DNA from: Candidatus Kapaibacterium sp.
GTDB taxonomy: Bacteria; Bacteroidota; Ignavibacteria; Kapaibacteriales; UBA4661
Reading direction: 5' to 3'
DNA: 64,000 nucleotides
Assembly (NCBI GenBank): GCA_025455065.1
Contig: JALONG010000003.1
Location: 1-64,000, forward strand
Shown here: positions 35,224 through 49,511 of the stretch, one piece after another
Layout: each line of letters opens with the position of its first letter
Numbering within the stretch: the stretch's first letter is position 1
Program-made: the position numbers and the translations under genes
The notes under the pieces: generated by a model
Told to the model about the DNA's origin: nothing
The model's database searches: none
What the model saw: only the letters and a program-made list of their open reading frames with translations

Positions 35224-36048
35224 TTATTTTTTGCCTTTATCGGATTTATCCGTTTTTTTGTCATCAGTTTTTTTGTCATCAGTTTTTTTGTTTTTGCGTG
35301 CTTCTGCTTCCAATTTCATTGCTTCGGCGCGTTTTTTCATTGCTTCAGCTTCGAGGCGCATGGCTTCTGCTTCTTTGCGGAGTGCTTCGGCTTCTCGTGT
35401 GAGGTCGTTTGCGTCTTCGGCTAAATCTTCGGCTTTTTTCGACTCGAAATCGTCATCGTCAAAATGCCATACGTTTGGAGCATTCGGCATTCTCGGCGGT
35501 CGTGGTGCATGAAATTGGAAACTGCGAGCGAGATTTTCAAAAGGTTTGGTATCAAAGTGGAATTGATTGATTCCGCGCCCAAATGCGCGTGAAAACTCGC
35601 CCCCCCAACGACGCATATCATCGCCCGAAAATTGAAATACCATATTGCGGTCAGTGTCGCCGTCGCCGTCATTGTCAATGGTAACGGTCATCGTGTTATT
35701 GGTCGAAGCGATACGAACATTTTTGCGAACACGCTCCATCGCAGAGCGGAAGCCATTGCGGGCGTTGCTGTCGGTTTTGATGATAATTTCGTCAATCGTT
35801 TTCCAATCGCCGACTTTTTCTTTCATATCCTCGCCATCGCCAGAATAAATCACCTCACCATTTTTGATGATTGTTACGCTTTTTTTCTTCGACTTTTTTG
35901 CAGCGTCTTCTGAAGTACTGGATTGTGCGGAACTTTGCGCAAAAAGGCTTGTCGCCATTGCAAACACAATGAACATGAAACCGCCCAGAATCAGGCTTGC
36001 GGCGGTTTTGCGCTTGGAAGAATTGGGAGAAAGGCTATGGTAGTGCAT
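35224..36048 (-). CDS. Exported protein of unknown function with a repeat-rich charged tail
   Basis: 274 residues; not recognised. A signal peptide or anchor (KTAASLILGGFMFIVFAMAT, ending FAQ) precedes a middle part with IIIKTDSNARNGFRSAMERV and a DNDGDGDTD calcium-binding-like loop, then an acidic FDDDDF. The last ~80 residues repeat a seven-residue unit of the type AEAMRLE/AEAMKKR five to six times, a strong coiled coil, and end in KKTDDKKTDDKKTD, encoded by a near-exact DNA repeat. It is probably periplasmic. The tail could bind DNA, peptidoglycan or a partner helix. Confidence 0.75.
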   Translation of the reverse strand: MHYHSLSPNSSKRKTAASLILGGFMFIVFAMATSLFAQSSAQSSTSEDAAKKSKKKSVTIIKNGEVIYSGDGEDMKEKVGDWKTIDEIIIKTDSNARNGFRSAMERVRKNVRIASTNNTMTVTIDNDGDGDTDRNMVFQFSGDDMRRWGGEFSRAFGRGINQFHFDTKPFENLARSFQFHAPRPPRMPNAPNVWHFDDDDFESKKAEDLAEDANDLTREAEALRKEAEAMRLEAEAMKKRAEAMKLEAEARKNKKTDDKKTDDKKTDKSDKGKK

Positions 36049-42721: not shown

Positions 42722-44254
42722 CTATGGCTTTCCAAGAGAAATTTTTTCAACCACTTTGGCGACTTTGGTAAATGCTGTATGAGCGGGTAAATCTGCGATG
42801 TTGCTTTTGAGTTTACGGGCTTCATCGGCGGAAACGCCAAAGACTTGTTGTAAAAAATTATGTGCGGAGGCATTACTTTGTAGCACAAATACGAATTCTA
42901 ACATTTCCAAAAAGTCAAATTCTGCTTGGTCAAAATCGCTTGGCGATTGTGATAGCAAGACCACTGCAACACCCTTTGAACGAACCTCACGAATCATTTC
43001 TGCCAAAATCTTTACACGCTTTTTGTCGTTCAAAAAGTGATGCGCCTCGTCAATCACAATAACCGTCCGCATTGTACGTGCCGATGTTCCGGGATGAACG
43101 GGTGAGTCGGGCAGTGCCATAATTTTTCGTTGCAGCTCTTTTAGGATAAAGAACACGCAGAGTTCTTTTTTTGCTGGCAGTGCATGAATGTCGAAAATTA
43201 CACTGCGGTTTAAGAGCGAATCCCACAATGGCATTTCTTTTTCGGCAAAAAGATTGTGTTCGGTCAAAGGGCGAAAGACCGACGTGAGCGAATCAGCTTT
43301 TTTCTCCGTGCGCTCAAGTTCAGCGCGAATATCGGTAAAATCGGGATACTCAAATCCTTCACCTTCAACACGGTTGTATGCCGCCAGCACAGCATCGTAG
43401 AGCTTTTGTTCCTGTGCCTTGCCGATGTTCGCTTCCACATCGCGCACCGTTTGTACAAAACGCTCTGCTTGACCTTTGCGCTCTTGTTCGGTATTTTCCT
43501 CAAGTTTGAACATATTGAGCGGAATGGGCTGCCGACTGACATTCAGCACTTCTGCGCGTGTGTCGCGGTGAAAATTGTACGCATTCCACAAATCGCCCTT
43601 GTAATCAAACATGATAAACTGCGTCTGAAAGTTTGATTTCTTCCTAAGTTCGGTGATAAAATGCTTGATGAAGGTTGTTTTGCCGCTTCCGGGCTTGCCG
43701 ATGATGGCGACGTGGTTGTTATTGTGTTCTGCAACGTTGTTGAAGTTGATATGATATGCCGTTTTACTGGACTGAACAGTGCCTACGTGCAGCTTGATTG
43801 TACCGTCGAATCCTATGACTCTGGGTTCTAAGCCATCTGTGTCATCCTTATACTGATTGGGCAATCCACCGTCGCGTCCCCCCTTCTCGGCGAGGAGCAA
43901 AAGATACTCGTACCCATTTATGGAATCTGTTTCGGCATTGATAGTTTTTAAGCCATCTTCAAGATGCCATTTGAGATAGTCATCATACTCATCATCCGTC
44001 AAACGGCGCTGATATAATTGCTGCAAAAGCAACCGGAAAAGCAGCCCGTCATTTTGCTCCAGCGTTGGCACTTCTATTTCAAAGCCTTTTTTGTCAGTAC
44101 TGGAAATCTGCTCAAGTGGAGATTCTTTTTGCAGAGAACGCGCCAACGCAATCCGTAGCGGTTCGTATTTATCTCTATTTCGCATTTCGAGACTGATACG
44201 GGCGCGGTCTAAGTGTTCTGTTGCTTGGGTAGAGAGTTTAATTTTTCGAGCCAT
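42722..44254 (-). CDS. DndE domain fused to a HerA-like ATPase
   Basis: 510 residues, last gene of the Dnd operon. Residues 1-110 follow the DndE pattern (IKLSTQATEHLDRARISLE, then LRIALARSLQKE, then LLFRLLLQQLYQRRLTDDEY). A HerA/FtsK-type ATPase follows: Walker A IIGKPGSGKTTF (~185-195), MFDYKGDLW, Walker B TVIVIDEAHHF (~395-405) and the VVLLSQSPSDF sensor. Normal DndE is a ~120-residue protein that binds nicked DNA. The fusion ties a DNA translocase to that activity, either for modification or for restriction. Its start overlaps the end of dndB by 17 bp. Confidence 0.85.
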   Translation of the reverse strand: MARKIKLSTQATEHLDRARISLEMRNRDKYEPLRIALARSLQKESPLEQISSTDKKGFEIEVPTLEQNDGLLFRLLLQQLYQRRLTDDEYDDYLKWHLEDGLKTINAETDSINGYEYLLLLAEKGGRDGGLPNQYKDDTDGLEPRVIGFDGTIKLHVGTVQSSKTAYHINFNNVAEHNNNHVAIIGKPGSGKTTFIKHFITELRKKSNFQTQFIMFDYKGDLWNAYNFHRDTRAEVLNVSRQPIPLNMFKLEENTEQERKGQAERFVQTVRDVEANIGKAQEQKLYDAVLAAYNRVEGEGFEYPDFTDIRAELERTEKKADSLTSVFRPLTEHNLFAEKEMPLWDSLLNRSVIFDIHALPAKKELCVFFILKELQRKIMALPDSPVHPGTSARTMRTVIVIDEAHHFLNDKKRVKILAEMIREVRSKGVAVVLLSQSPSDFDQAEFDFLEMLEFVFVLQSNASAHNFLQQVFGVSADEARKLKSNIADLPAHTAFTKVAKVVEKISLGKP

Positions 44255-45536
44255 GATCTAATCTTTGTGGCAAAGTAAGTGTATCATCTACTAAAACTTT
44301 TTGATAGTCGCGTAGAAGTTTTTCATCTGAAGGTAATGGTTTTCCGTCATGCCCTGCCATATACAGAAGAATATTTTGTAGTAACGGTTTGTTTTTTGTA
44401 TTTATTGTCTTAGTGGAAGATTGCCAGAATAGATGCAGTAATGGACTTGACATTAAATCTAAAGGCAGCTGGGCGACACGTGCGATAACACTTTCCAGGG
44501 TGTCATTTGTTGCTCTTTTCCTCGCGTTATTGTACAAAATAACAGTCATTTTAACAATCATCTGCAAGCCAATAGGTCTAAAGATAAAATGACCACCGTT
44601 ATCGTTTCGATAACGCTCAACAACTTCTTGATAGTTATCCGTAGCTAAATATTCTTGCAAAGGCAAAAATGCCTTTATTAAGGCATCAAAATACCCTACC
44701 ACAAATTGGTAGAATTGTTCGTACTCTTCATTGGAGTATTTATTACCTTTACCAATTTTCATTTTGCTCGCTAAATCATCAATCGCCCCAAGTATATTCA
44801 CCACATCATAGAGATTTGTAAGAGTTGTCAAAGCGTTTTTCTCAGTCGGCGCAAGATTACTACTCTTGTTGTACACTGTATCACTCTTGCTGGATATACG
44901 CTGCCCTTGAAACAACATATATTCGCGCACTAAGCGACGCAGGGTAACGGCGATAATATCATCTTCATCCAAAGCAATAATCTCCGTTTTGGAGACAGGT
45001 TTTGCAAATTTATTCAACGTCGTAAAAAGTCGACGGCTACGTTGCCGCCCTTCTTCTGTCACCTCATGCGGCAAGAAAATCACTGATAAATACTCATCTG
45101 CAAGTTCTGCATTTTCTTGTACTGCCTTTTTAATTCCTGCTAGACGGTGCTGTCCATCCAATGTAAAAAGACGTTCTGAGCCATTAAATTGCAGAATACC
45201 TATTTTTTCGGTGATGGATTCGTCTGGTATCTCAATGCCAAGTGCTGGATTCACAGACAAATTTTCTATCGGTAGCCACTGCGGTTCGCCGTCGTACACG
45301 GCTATAACTAGAGAACTAAAAAATCGCTCCTCCTCTGTGAGGAGATAGTTGGCAATAGCTTTGCCACGCTTCTTATCCAGTTCTCTTTGTAAAAGATCAC
45401 TCAATACCTTACTTTGGTATATTTCGTCCGCATAGCTAATACGTTCTGCAATATCTTGTAACCTCATTAAGCATGAGTAGTACGTCCAAGAGCCAAGGTA
45501 GCCGCGTAATGCAGGGAATTGTAATTTCCTATTCAT
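44238..45536 (-). CDS. dndB: DndB-like DGQHR-domain protein
   Basis: 432 residues from ATG 45536, which overlaps the GIY-YIG stop codon in an ATGA arrangement. The DGQHR motif is at 127-131 (RLFTLDGQHRLAGIKKAVQE), followed by VIFLPHEVTEEGRQRSRRLF and FTTLNKFAKPVSKTEIIALD. DndB proteins are non-essential for phosphorothioation and in studied systems act as repressors or tuners of modification. Embedded between dndD and dndE-like genes here, it is part of the operon instead of standing first. Confidence 0.85.
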   Translation of the reverse strand: MNRKLQFPALRGYLGSWTYYSCLMRLQDIAERISYADEIYQSKVLSDLLQRELDKKRGKAIANYLLTEEERFFSSLVIAVYDGEPQWLPIENLSVNPALGIEIPDESITEKIGILQFNGSERLFTLDGQHRLAGIKKAVQENAELADEYLSVIFLPHEVTEEGRQRSRRLFTTLNKFAKPVSKTEIIALDEDDIIAVTLRRLVREYMLFQGQRISSKSDTVYNKSSNLAPTEKNALTTLTNLYDVVNILGAIDDLASKMKIGKGNKYSNEEYEQFYQFVVGYFDALIKAFLPLQEYLATDNYQEVVERYRNDNGGHFIFRPIGLQMIVKMTVILYNNARKRATNDTLESVIARVAQLPLDLMSSPLLHLFWQSSTKTINTKNKPLLQNILLYMAGHDGKPLPSDEKLLRDYQKVLVDDTLTLPQRLDHGSKN

Positions 45537-46027
45537 AAAGCATTCAAGATTGTAGAAATCCAAACAGAAAAGCCGTTTTTATTGCATGATGGCAGGAAAG
45601 TATCAAGCAGGAGTTTTTCTAATTTTGCTATGTCTGTTGAAGGATCTGTTATTTCATGAAAATAGAAATACAAATAACCATCCCAATTATTTAGAAGTTT
45701 GTTGATTTTAGGTCGGGCAGCATCAAACCGCTTTTTGTCTTGAAAATACTGCATAAAACGCTTGCGTAGAGTATTCTTGCTCTTGTCTCCTGCCTTACCA
45801 ATGTACATGAGATAGGCATGATTAGGAAAGTTCGCTAATTCTGGCTCAATAAAAAAAGCATAAAGACCTGGCGTATCAGGAACAGAGACTTTACTGTCCT
45901 CGTTAAAACGAACTCTTTCCCACTTCAGGGGTGGCAGTTCAACAGATTTATCAATCCACTGTCGCCTCCAAAGGCGCACAGATTGTGTATAATCCTGCAA
46001 CTCTTGGCGTAATTCAACCTGAATCAT
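45533..46027 (-). CDS. GIY-YIG nuclease-domain protein inside the Dnd operon
   Basis: 164 residues. DTPGLYAFFIEPE (GLY at 54-56) and YLMYIGKAG (YIG at 75-77) are the two signature motifs; Arg/Lys follow in NTLRKRFMQYF, and the catalytic-type Glu lies in AKLEKLLLDTFLPSCNK (~137). All residues expected of an active GIY-YIG nuclease are visible. The N-terminal ~50 residues may bind a partner. It sits 18 bp after dndD and overlaps dndB by 4 bp, so it is co-expressed with the modification genes. A role as the cleaving arm of the system is inferred. Confidence 0.82.
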   Translation of the reverse strand: MIQVELRQELQDYTQSVRLWRRQWIDKSVELPPLKWERVRFNEDSKVSVPDTPGLYAFFIEPELANFPNHAYLMYIGKAGDKSKNTLRKRFMQYFQDKKRFDAARPKINKLLNNWDGYLYFYFHEITDPSTDIAKLEKLLLDTFLPSCNKNGFSVWISTILNAL

Positions 46028-46044
46028 AATTTTCTCAGAAATTC

Positions 46045-48087
46045 TTATTGCTGAAAATACTGCCCTCGCACAACACGAGCAGTTTGGCGGGCAGTATCCT
46101 TATTTATCATGTAGGTTTGCGCTATATGAGGCTTGAGAACCTCGTAGGTATCACGTACAACTTCTTCGTCGGTTGAGAGCAAAATGACTTGTTCTCCGGC
46201 ATTTGCAAAGTAGTGTTTCGCAATTTGAGCGCGGTGCTGAGAATCCAATCGTGCAAGCGGTGTATCAATGACAATCGGCAATGAGCGGTCGGTAATTTGC
46301 GAAAGTGCGTATATTAAGGAAATTGCTAGTAGCTCTTTTTCTCCTGCTGAGAGCTTTGTTTTGTCTATTGCGTCGCCATTTGCACTGTATAGCGTAATCG
46401 CAAATTGCTTCTCTGCATCAATTTTGAGCGATGAAAACTGGTCTTTCTTACGCGCAAGTTTTTTGAGGGTTTTAAGAGCAAACTCTTCCAAACGCTCAAC
46501 TCGACTAACGCGAAAATCATGTAAAAAGATTTCTAAAGTATCTCGAACTTTATCGCAATACTCTATTTGACGCTGCATAGAATCTGTTGCTTTCGCAGAT
46601 TCTTCCTTGTTCGTTCTTTCTTTGCGCAAAGCCTGAATCTCATCACGATTTCTTTGCGCCTGCACCATCCATATCTCTCGAATTTCACGCTCTTTGATGT
46701 CAATTTCAGCCTTGATCTTTCCTTTTTCCTCAAATAGTTTTTCGACCTGACTATCACGGGTCAAACGCTCTTTCTTTTCCAATCGTATCAACTCCGTATT
46801 TATCTCGTTCAAACGGGTAATCTGTTTTTTGAAACGCGACAAGGTTTCAAAACTCTGTCGCGCCCGAAGGACAATCCGTTGCTCATCACTTTTGGTAATG
46901 TCATGGAGCATCTCCGCGGAATCTAAGATAGGTTGTCGGTCTATAAACGTGTCATTTAACACTTCGCGCAGTGCATCTACATAAAATTGCTTCTGCCGTT
47001 CCAACAAAGGAGGTACAGCCTCTATATCACCAAAAAAAATGCGCTCAATAACATTATTTATCTTAGGCTGATGAACTTTTTGCAACGTGCGGTATTCAGA
47101 TATTTTTTCTTCTTGACTCAACTGACTGAAAACCGACTTGAGCAATCTTGCCATCATAAGAATAGGCAAATCACTCGAAATAGCTGTTCCAACTGTTTCT
47201 TCAATAAATTTCTTTTCCGTGCGTAGTTCTTCGCGTTGGTCTCGAAATCCTTCTGCTGTGTCCGCATCAATACGTGTAATGCGCTGCGTTTCTCTATCTA
47301 AGACATTGAGGCGATCTTGAAAATTCTGAATCTCGCTCTGCAAAGTATCCATTTTCTCTTGCGCTTCGATAATTTTTTCTTCCGATTCGGCAATCTCCGC
47401 ATCAATCTCAGCGATTCTTTTTTTAATACCTTGATTCGCTTTATATCCTGTCAGAATACGACTTTTTGTTGTTGCTAAGTCCTCAATAAGAGTCCTGTAA
47501 ACACTGATACCTAAAATTTTCTCAAGTGCATCGGCAAAAGCCTCATCCTCATCTTTAACAAAATCCTGTATTTTCTCACCGTCAAAGAAAAAAAACTGAG
47601 AAACGTCGTAAGGTAGTAGTTCTTCAATAAAACTTTCATACTCATCCTGAGCCGTTATTTCAAAACTCGAACCATCAACTTTCCTAATCGTAAACTCTTC
47701 ATTCCGTATATGATTATTAGAGTTCAAACCCCAGGAACGTTTGATAATAATATCCTGTAAAATATTTCCTATCTCCACGTTTCCTAGCTGAATTTCGATA
47801 GACATTTGAAGTTGTACCGCATCACGTTTTGCTTCGTCATTCATCATGGCAACAATATAATGTTGATAATCTTCACGTTTTGCCCCTTTAGAAGGAAATA
47901 AATTACGATTCCTTTTGCCATACAAACAGAGCAATATGGCTTCCAAAAAAGTAGTCTTTCCGGCACCATTTAAACCGCCAAATAAGATAATTCGTTTGTT
48001 CCGCGAAAGCCCTGTTGTCAAGCCACCAATGGTATGTGTTCCTAAAAACGACTTAAAATTATGCAACGTTACTGATTCTATATTCAT
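46045..48087 (-). CDS. dndD: DNA sulfur modification ATPase DndD
   Basis: 680 residues of SMC/SbcC-like layout. Walker A is FGGLNGAGKTTFLEAI (~37-50); DVSQFFFFDGEKIQDF is the DndD-specific segment; long coiled coils span ~210-290 and ~400-520; the ABC signature LSAGEKELLA (~579-588) and Walker B PIVIDTPLARLD (~604-615) close the protein. DndD has ATPase activity thought to open or nick DNA for sulfur insertion. It follows dndC by 5 bp. Confidence 0.93.
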   Translation of the reverse strand: MNIESVTLHNFKSFLGTHTIGGLTTGLSRNKRIILFGGLNGAGKTTFLEAILLCLYGKRNRNLFPSKGAKREDYQHYIVAMMNDEAKRDAVQLQMSIEIQLGNVEIGNILQDIIIKRSWGLNSNNHIRNEEFTIRKVDGSSFEITAQDEYESFIEELLPYDVSQFFFFDGEKIQDFVKDEDEAFADALEKILGISVYRTLIEDLATTKSRILTGYKANQGIKKRIAEIDAEIAESEEKIIEAQEKMDTLQSEIQNFQDRLNVLDRETQRITRIDADTAEGFRDQREELRTEKKFIEETVGTAISSDLPILMMARLLKSVFSQLSQEEKISEYRTLQKVHQPKINNVIERIFFGDIEAVPPLLERQKQFYVDALREVLNDTFIDRQPILDSAEMLHDITKSDEQRIVLRARQSFETLSRFKKQITRLNEINTELIRLEKKERLTRDSQVEKLFEEKGKIKAEIDIKEREIREIWMVQAQRNRDEIQALRKERTNKEESAKATDSMQRQIEYCDKVRDTLEIFLHDFRVSRVERLEEFALKTLKKLARKKDQFSSLKIDAEKQFAITLYSANGDAIDKTKLSAGEKELLAISLIYALSQITDRSLPIVIDTPLARLDSQHRAQIAKHYFANAGEQVILLSTDEEVVRDTYEVLKPHIAQTYMINKDTARQTARVVRGQYFQQ

Positions 48088-48092
48088 AAGCC

Positions 48093-49511
48093 CTATGCTA
48101 ATTCTTGATGTGAAGATGCTTCCTCGTTCTCTTTGACGAAACGTTTGATTTTTTGCTCCATACTGGCAAATATAGTACCACGCCGCAAGAAGGCAAGATG
48201 ACCACGCTCAAGTTCCAGCAATTCTTTAATGTGGTCTGCCCGCACATCGTTTTGTTCACTTATTTTTTCCAGGATGGCAAACTCTTCTTTACGACGCTCA
48301 AGTGAGGAATACTCAGAAAGCATCAGGCTTCTCCCTGTTATTCGTTGATAAATTTCGGCAACGGAGTATTGAAATTTGCCGTCATAATGCCACTGTACTT
48401 GAATTGCTGAAAGCTCTTGAATACTAATTAGATGCGTTTGAATATTTGGATATATCTGCTCTTGAATGGTAAGAAGTTTCTCAAGAATTTCTTTTCTGAT
48501 GTCAATCGTAAATGGTCCTATTCCATCTTGCCCGGATCTACGCCGTTTTTCTCGGTACTTTTCCTCATCACGAATCTCTTTCAGCCAATCTCGAAAATTG
48601 AGCAACGGACGCATCCATTCTTCGCCATTCAAAACCATACCTGTCATAGACTTATCTTTATCCACCACTGTACACGTCCAGCAACCAAAGCGCGAATTTC
48701 CGCAACTTGGCGTGGTAGTATCAATCACAAGTGGACATTCTTGAATATCGAAAGCACTGTAATACAAACGCACCAATTCTTGATTATCACCGCCCCAAGG
48801 GTTCGGATTGCGTGTGAGGTACGCCCATACTTGCTTGTTGGTCATCTCTGCGATAGGCGCAAACACAAAGGCATTGGGCAAAGTATGTTTTCTCAGTCGC
48901 ACACCTTCAAGTTCATATTGCTTCATGGAAGCCGCCCGATTAGCGGATTCATCTTTGCGCGTTCCGAGCAAAATAATGGCTTTACCGTGCTTATTGACAG
49001 TCTTAATAATGTAATCACTGGTAGGATTAATCTTCATCCGCTCAGTACACCATCGAAACCAGCGATTTGGCGACGGATACCCCTTCCCAATCATATTCAA
49101 CCAAAATGTATCTTCAAGTTTGGGAACGGTCTTAACGACATGAAACAAAGCGGGGTTATGGGCAAACAAATGATTTTTACCAGCATCCCGAATCAATCCC
49201 AGTTGTCGGTCAAGATATTCTATAACTTTGGGATTTTCAACAAGCGTGTCATTTGACAAAACATGAATTTCTTTGATTCGTTTTTCAATCGGCAGACCAT
49301 CAATAGCAGCAAAGACAAGCTGCAACAGCGCTGTGCTATCTTTGCCACCAGAGAAACCAAGCACCCAAGGCAAACCATCTTCACAATACTGCTCCTGAAT
49401 TTCTTGCAGGGAAAAACGCACTAACTCTTCAAGGTTTGCACCTGTTTCCTCTAGTTCATCTTCTTGAACAATTATTGGTCGCGTTTTCTTTGTTGCGGTT
49501 TCTGTAAGCAT
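48093..49511 (-). CDS. dndC: DNA phosphorothioation sulfurtransferase DndC
   Basis: 472 residues of the PAPS-reductase-like PP-loop family. WVLGFSGGKDSTALLQLVFA carries the ATP-binding SGGKDST (~54-60). Cysteines expected for an iron-sulfur cluster are in RWCTERMKI and SCGNSRFGCWTCTVVDKDKS. DndC activates DNA for insertion of sulfur into the backbone, receiving sulfur from a cysteine desulfurase. No dndA is present nearby, so a housekeeping IscS is the probable donor. It is the first gene of the operon; the promoter must lie in ~49512-49600. Confidence 0.94.
   Translation of the reverse strand: MLTETATKKTRPIIVQEDELEETGANLEELVRFSLQEIQEQYCEDGLPWVLGFSGGKDSTALLQLVFAAIDGLPIEKRIKEIHVLSNDTLVENPKVIEYLDRQLGLIRDAGKNHLFAHNPALFHVVKTVPKLEDTFWLNMIGKGYPSPNRWFRWCTERMKINPTSDYIIKTVNKHGKAIILLGTRKDESANRAASMKQYELEGVRLRKHTLPNAFVFAPIAEMTNKQVWAYLTRNPNPWGGDNQELVRLYYSAFDIQECPLVIDTTTPSCGNSRFGCWTCTVVDKDKSMTGMVLNGEEWMRPLLNFRDWLKEIRDEEKYREKRRRSGQDGIGPFTIDIRKEILEKLLTIQEQIYPNIQTHLISIQELSAIQVQWHYDGKFQYSVAEIYQRITGRSLMLSEYSSLERRKEEFAILEKISEQNDVRADHIKELLELERGHLAFLRRGTIFASMEQKIKRFVKENEEASSHQELA

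Follow-up and report, generated by a model that had tools for sequence, protein, structure and literature searches.

Five genes follow one another on the minus strand of the window, the 64,000-nucleotide (64-kb) stretch of Candidatus Kapaibacterium sp. DNA analysed here (Table 1). The first two score well above the equivalog cut-offs of their families: DndC reaches 446.9 bits on TIGR03183 against a cut-off of 290.4 (PADLOC DndC, 2.7e-148), and DndD reaches 396.8 bits on TIGR03185 against 245.85. The last gene encodes a DndE domain fused to a HerA-type ATPase, with matches to PF08870 (43 bits; threshold 25) and PF01935 (HerA/DUF87; 43 bits). On the DndE model TIGR03184, this protein, with its DndE domain fused to HerA, scores 29.2 of 71.85 bits, and it is also similar to the C-terminus of DndH. 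Judged by these matches, the operon has Dnd features, namely DndC and DndD orthologs together with a DndE domain. The genes are tightly spaced, with gaps of 5 bp between dndC and dndD and of 17 bp between dndD and the GIY-YIG gene, and an overlap of 17 bp between the DGQHR and dndE/herA genes. The stop of the GIY-YIG gene and the start of the DGQHR gene share a 4-bp ATGA overlap if the latter begins with the ATG at 45536; an alternative start, a TTG at 45563, would lengthen the DGQHR reading frame. A sequence-only reading of the window had described the same five-gene order, tight spacing and ATGA coupling, and all of these were recovered, the coupling for the ATG start.

Table 1. Genes of the operon in the window, in order of transcription
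Feature	Coordinates	Strand	Basis of assignment
dndC, phosphorothioation sulfurtransferase (PAPS-reductase/PP-loop family)	48093..49511	-	TIGR03183, PADLOC DndC
dndD, ABC/SMC-like ATPase	46045..48087	-	TIGR03185
GIY-YIG nuclease, 164 aa (putative), cassette gene 1	45533..46027	-	catalytic set, predicted structure
DGQHR/ParB-Srx-fold protein (DndB-like; fold predicted), cassette gene 2	44238..45536	-	PF14072, TIGR03187, TIGR03233
DndE (two-RHH domain) fused to HerA/FtsK ATPase	42722..44254	-	PF08870, PF01935

The surrounding genes, judged by eye from their translations, look like housekeeping genes: rplQ, rpoA, rpsK, rpsM, infA, map and secY on one flank, and on the opposite flank a peptidase together with genes of biosynthesis. 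Consistent with the earlier remark that dptFGH-type genes are not visible, no dptFGH-like gene was recognized among these neighbours, and no open reading frame (ORF) between positions 36000 and 56000 exceeds 680 aa. Inspection of the ORF list by eye revealed no DndFGH, SspFGH or Pbe restriction genes in or beside the operon. The DndF profile TIGR03238 had no match elsewhere in the same genome, but its control matched nowhere either, so this silence does not speak for absence. Another contig of this genome (C57; L017, 9767-19900) encodes a 576-aa HerA-type ATPase convergent with a 2789-aa ORF, possibly a further defence locus.

Based on conserved residues and predicted fold, the product of the third gene is treated as a catalytically intact GIY-YIG nuclease. 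Residues G54, Y56, Y75, G77, R90, Y94 and E137 are identical in all 38 aligned sequences, which upholds the two GIY-YIG motifs and the catalytic-type glutamate recognized earlier, while N149 is an asparagine in 33 of the 38 and a cysteine or serine in five relatives. On Pfam the window protein scores 15.8 bits, below the gathering threshold of 22.6, and PF01541 is matched with E values of 0.01 or below by five of 30 relatives. Despite this sub-threshold score the call is secure, because the catalytic residues are invariant and the AlphaFold model (m19f651931a02, pLDDT 77.5) matches T4 EndoII (Z 10.6, with 102 residues aligned at an rmsd of 2.6 Å), UvrC (Z 8.5), I-TevI (Z 7.5) and R.Eco29kI (Z 6.4). 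The only solved structure found to be close by sequence is UvrC, and weakly so. Two weak profile matches (L081 and L082) were rejected as family members, being UvrC-sized ORFs of 600-614 aa.

The fourth gene, previously labelled dndB, encodes a DGQHR protein that is distinct from canonical DndB. It matches PF14072 (113 bits) and TIGR03187 (103.9 bits), but attains just 75.8 of the 328 bits needed on the DndB equivalog TIGR03233, and in a phylogenetic tree a long 100/100 branch separates canonical DndBs from its clade; together, score and placement rule out the dndB label. Two dnd loci, L066 and L087, carry both the pair of GIY-YIG and DGQHR genes and an ordinary dndB, so the window 'dndB' is a different protein. 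Canonical DndB likewise belongs to the DGQHR/PF14072 family and adjoins dnd genes, but falls in a separate clade, and those examined have no GIY-YIG partner. Genes annotated as dndB may therefore be half of a nuclease cassette and not an operon regulator. The N-terminal domain of the DGQHR protein models as a ParB/Srx-like fold: residues 19-202 match ParB (Z 7.6), Noc (Z 7.1) and sulfiredoxin (Z 5.9), and more weakly SspE (Z 4.2) and BrxU (Z 4.0), no match exceeding Z 8, so that the fold call relies on the coherence of the ParB, Noc and sulfiredoxin matches. The DGQHR motif is invariant among the aligned DGQHR proteins. No solved structure close to this protein by sequence was found, and neither member of the pair matches DUF262 or DUF1524.

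The GIY-YIG and DGQHR genes are paired in all 39 surveyed loci, which span nine bacterial phyla. A scan of ~85,000 species genomes with a DGQHR alignment, a query that holds no GIY-YIG information, returned 29 loci in Bacteroidota, Ignavibacteria, Acidobacteria, Chloroflexi, Cyanobacteria, Nitrospira, Planctomycetes (Jettenia) and Bacillota, and in every one of them a GIY-YIG ORF lies directly upstream of the DGQHR gene, the two overlapping by up to 4 bp or being separated by at most 12 bp. Conversely, DGQHR adjoins all loci retrieved with a GIY-YIG query except the UvrC matches. A GIY-YIG search of ~395 Bacteroidota genomes identified two genomes besides the window's own; in both, the gene directly precedes DGQHR, and the neighbours are DUF4007-ATPase-PAPS reductase genes instead of dnd genes. 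The total of 39 further includes viral contigs, Pseudomonadota plasmids, a Salmonella record and more genomes of two phyla. One partner looks interrupted in three loci (DGQHR in L045 and L087, GIY-YIG in L061). Among viral contigs, the GIY-YIG profile A1 had no match, and DGQHR profiles recovered three to four paired loci. The pairing rule covers the DGQHR clade of the window and not every DGQHR protein: distant homologs outside this tight clade (L067, L126-L128) lack GIY-YIG. The GIY-YIG gene is thus no random neighbour but is coupled to DGQHR, mostly beside Ssp-type genes. On a 178-kb viral contig (L125, 9655-11206), a short GIY-YIG-like ORF directly precedes a divergent DGQHR protein.

Variation in the two proteins is strongly correlated. 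Over 36 loci their distance matrices give r 0.92, and 0 of 5000 Mantel permutations, which ignore shared ancestry, gave a value as high. Across the 26 Ssp loci that hold all four genes, r is 0.90 for GIY-YIG with DGQHR and 0.92 for SspC with SspD, against 0.52-0.61 for same-locus comparisons between the pair and the SspC/SspD block, and the partial r of GIY-YIG with SspD given DGQHR is 0.06. The contrast between blocks is informative despite shared ancestry because it was computed on identical loci. High correlation within each block and lower correlation across them point to two evolutionary modules, an effector-like pair and the modification genes, that have been reshuffled, with the pair varying largely independently of the modification genes.

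Thirty-three of the 39 pairs lie beside phosphorothioate (PT) modification genes, which are of the Ssp type in 30 loci and of the Dnd type in three. The Ssp neighbours are identified by PADLOC (SspC E 0, SspD 2e-84) and by Pfam DUF4007, and DUF4007-ATPase-PAPS reductase genes are homologous to SspB-SspC-SspD (PMC12839542). The three pairs linked to dndC-dndD are that of the window, one on a Rhizobium plasmid (L066) and one on a mobile element of Salmonella (L087). In the other six loci (L018, L044, L061, L062, L063 and L079), the stretch examined contains no PT-modification genes, some of these contigs being short. In the DGQHR tree, a clade of eight (support 98/99) places Dnd-linked pairs among Ssp-linked and prophage pairs. 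This mixture suggests that the pair has passed between systems more than once, although inner branches there are partly weak. Among the ~395 Bacteroidota genomes, the pair occurs in one of 10 dndD loci, that of the window, and in two of 18 SspC loci; it is optional, not obligatory, for modification systems. Its absence from nine of the 10 dndD loci rules out the GIY-YIG gene as a standard or usual Dnd component. The sequence-only reading had cast the GIY-YIG protein as the cleaving or nicking effector of a Dnd variant. Such a role is plausible and stays the favoured idea, but the Dnd-variant framing is not supported by the dndD count and the 30 Ssp-linked pairs, and that reading leaves aside that GIY-YIG and DGQHR may work as a unit.

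Several pairs are carried by mobile DNA, among them one on a Ti plasmid and one in an integrative element. The latter, in Salmonella Infantis SARB27 (L087, 9321-18219; AFYI01000007.1), combines the pair with a DndI-like GmrSD protein, containing GmrSD_N plus GmrSD_C, opposite dndBCDE; its DGQHR ORF looks interrupted in the 5' part, and no dndFGH genes are annotated in the stretch examined. In E. coli PEC209 (L086, 12001-13682; also the IMG/VR contig L062), the pair belongs to a P2-like prophage, where portal genes flank it on one side and replication genes on the other. E. coli JNEC-KY180 has an identical copy of this prophage pair, and the viral contig L063 bears a relative with 81% identity in DGQHR. 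Two of the 39 pairs are prophage cargo and have no SspBC or dnd genes on the stretch examined.

We consider it reasonably likely that the pair is a mobile, optional two-gene GIY-YIG/DGQHR effector cassette serving either Dnd or Ssp, in which the DGQHR protein, as an NTPase, would read PT and gate the nuclease. The DGQHR protein would bind and hydrolyse NTP, read the PT state of DNA and, in a putative complex, hold or release the GIY-YIG nuclease, which once freed would nick or cut incoming DNA. Its probable function is that of a switchable nuclease directed against phages. In the window, built into the dndCD-dndE/herA operon, it would form the only visible restriction arm, and DndE-HerA may load the complex or move it along DNA, the weakest step of this scheme. 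Support from sequence comes from the constant pairing, the tight operon coupling, the co-evolving unit, the intact active site and the predicted ParB/Srx fold with its DGQHR motif. The location of 33 of the 39 pairs beside PT-modification genes, and of one of them (L087) next to a dndI-like gene and dndBCDE, points the same way. NTPase-gated nickases are documented: DndI depends on its DGQQR motif for ATPase activity, and stimulation of this ATPase by PT frees the enzyme from self DNA (PMC11662687). Resemblance to the DGQHR domain has been noted for DUF262 of GmrS (PMC4619093), and binding of ATP and GTP for a DndB-like protein with a ParB fold (PMC12704722). Gating could be either DndI-like, with release from PT-marked DNA, or SspE-like, with PT as the activator; prophage copies without PT genes slightly disfavour a version that would be toxic where PT is lacking. 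Counting against the cassette reading are the weakness of the SspE and BrxU structure matches (Z about 4), the Cys/Ser replacements of N149 in the five relatives, and the six loci, two of them prophage, in which no PT-modification genes were seen on the stretch examined. Many Ssp loci also hold another candidate restriction module, so the pair is not needed there as sole effector.

The modules found beside Ssp-linked pairs comprise a PbeA-like helicase-nuclease with an ABC ATPase and a small protein, SspFGH, and a GHKL-type ATPase protein; PbeA-like, SspFGH, GHKL and DndI-like modules occur without the pair too. This frequent company would fit a different, though rather unlikely, role as a backup suicide effector, in which GIY-YIG kills the cell when the main Dnd or Ssp system is inhibited and DGQHR provides restraint as an immunity protein or sensor. 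A suicide role has been proposed for URI/GIY-YIG genes at Dnd borders by Rakesh et al. 2024 (PMC10853773), whereas the GIY-YIG gene described here is located inside its operon and is always tightly coupled to DGQHR. The logic overlaps that of the gated cassette, and sequence separates the two poorly. The GHKL-type protein itself, of ~800 aa, adjoins SspBCD in several loci (L041, 7001-9454; L025, 7076-9457; L110, 2675; L117, 14137; and others), recurs in Bacteroidota with or without the pair, and matches no PADLOC model.

It is improbable that the pair is instead an accessory of modification, with GIY-YIG nicking DNA for sulfur insertion and DGQHR tuning the PT level as is said of DndB. Nicking is thought to precede sulfur insertion, and canonical DndB has been characterized as regulating negatively (PMC10853773), but 16 of the 18 SspC loci and nine of the 10 dndD loci in Bacteroidota lack the pair, which moreover varies independently of SspC/SspD and occurs in prophages without SspBC or dnd genes. 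We likewise give little credence to a type IV-like activity, in which the pair would cut incoming PT- or otherwise modified DNA independently of any host PT system: although it is carried by prophages without PT genes, GmrSD-type BrxU shares a ParB-like domain, and the GIY-YIG enzyme PD-T4-3, specific for modified DNA and of solved structure, offers a parallel, 33 of the 39 pairs lie beside a PT-modification system that would mark host DNA for attack.

The gated GIY-YIG/DGQHR cassette resembles several known systems in part. SspE and DndI, which are PT-sensing DUF262-HNH nickases, similarly combine a ParB/Srx-fold NTPase bearing a DGQ-R motif with a nuclease and are encoded beside Ssp or Dnd modification genes. 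They are single chains with an HNH nuclease and DGQQR, whereas the pair consists of two proteins with GIY-YIG and DGQHR, and its PT sensing is putative. The type IV enzymes GmrSD and BrxU also join a ParB-like NTPase to a nuclease, and GmrS and GmrD can be separate genes, but their nuclease is HNH and their targets are others, while the pair is associated with PT systems. Both DndE-HerA fusions and URI/GIY-YIG genes located at Dnd borders had been reported before. The available text of Rakesh et al. 2024 (PMC10853773) lists URI/GIY-YIG among Dnd-linked nucleases, mostly at borders, which shares with the pair a GIY-YIG-superfamily nuclease linked to Dnd genes; these are standalone border genes for which that text names neither a DGQHR partner nor an Ssp home. 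Its clade 3 describes the same DndE-HerA fusion beside a DndD-type ATPase. No prior description of GIY-YIG with DGQHR in a PT system was found in the open-access literature searched, and we rate the pair as a putative restriction effector that is linked to PT and assembled from a new set of parts.

Wang et al. (PMC8092258) reported that 2,211 of 2,678 sspBCD clusters lack both SspE and SspFGH, and raised the question of additional restriction partners. The pair is a specific, widely spread candidate partner for such clusters. We give roughly even chances to the broader proposal that it represents an as yet undescribed class of PT-gated restriction effectors, made of a ParB-like sensor NTPase and a GIY-YIG nuclease as separate chains and serving both Dnd and Ssp, that explains some of the partnerless sspBCD loci. 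The two modification machineries that have the pair in common use unrelated ATPases and DNA-recognition parts, and this shared use offers a direct test of whether the effector reads PT as such or the complex that installs it. Versions of the pair in an E. coli prophage and on plasmids ease laboratory tests.

Additional gene arrangements were observed among the loci collected. In an Anaerolineales locus (L018, 3984-11743), the pair is followed by a 1350-aa BrxC/D-like ATPase, a 178-aa AAA protein and HerA, on a contig in which a cysteine desulfurase and no PAPS reductase was seen. Three other Bacteroidota DndE-HerA loci have neither GIY-YIG nor DGQHR. In two DndD/DndE-HerA loci (L015, 6672-6866; L016, 6944-7126), DndC is represented only by an ORF of 60-64 aa similar to part of it, located after a gene of ~700 aa, and sulfur modification may therefore be replaced in these loci.
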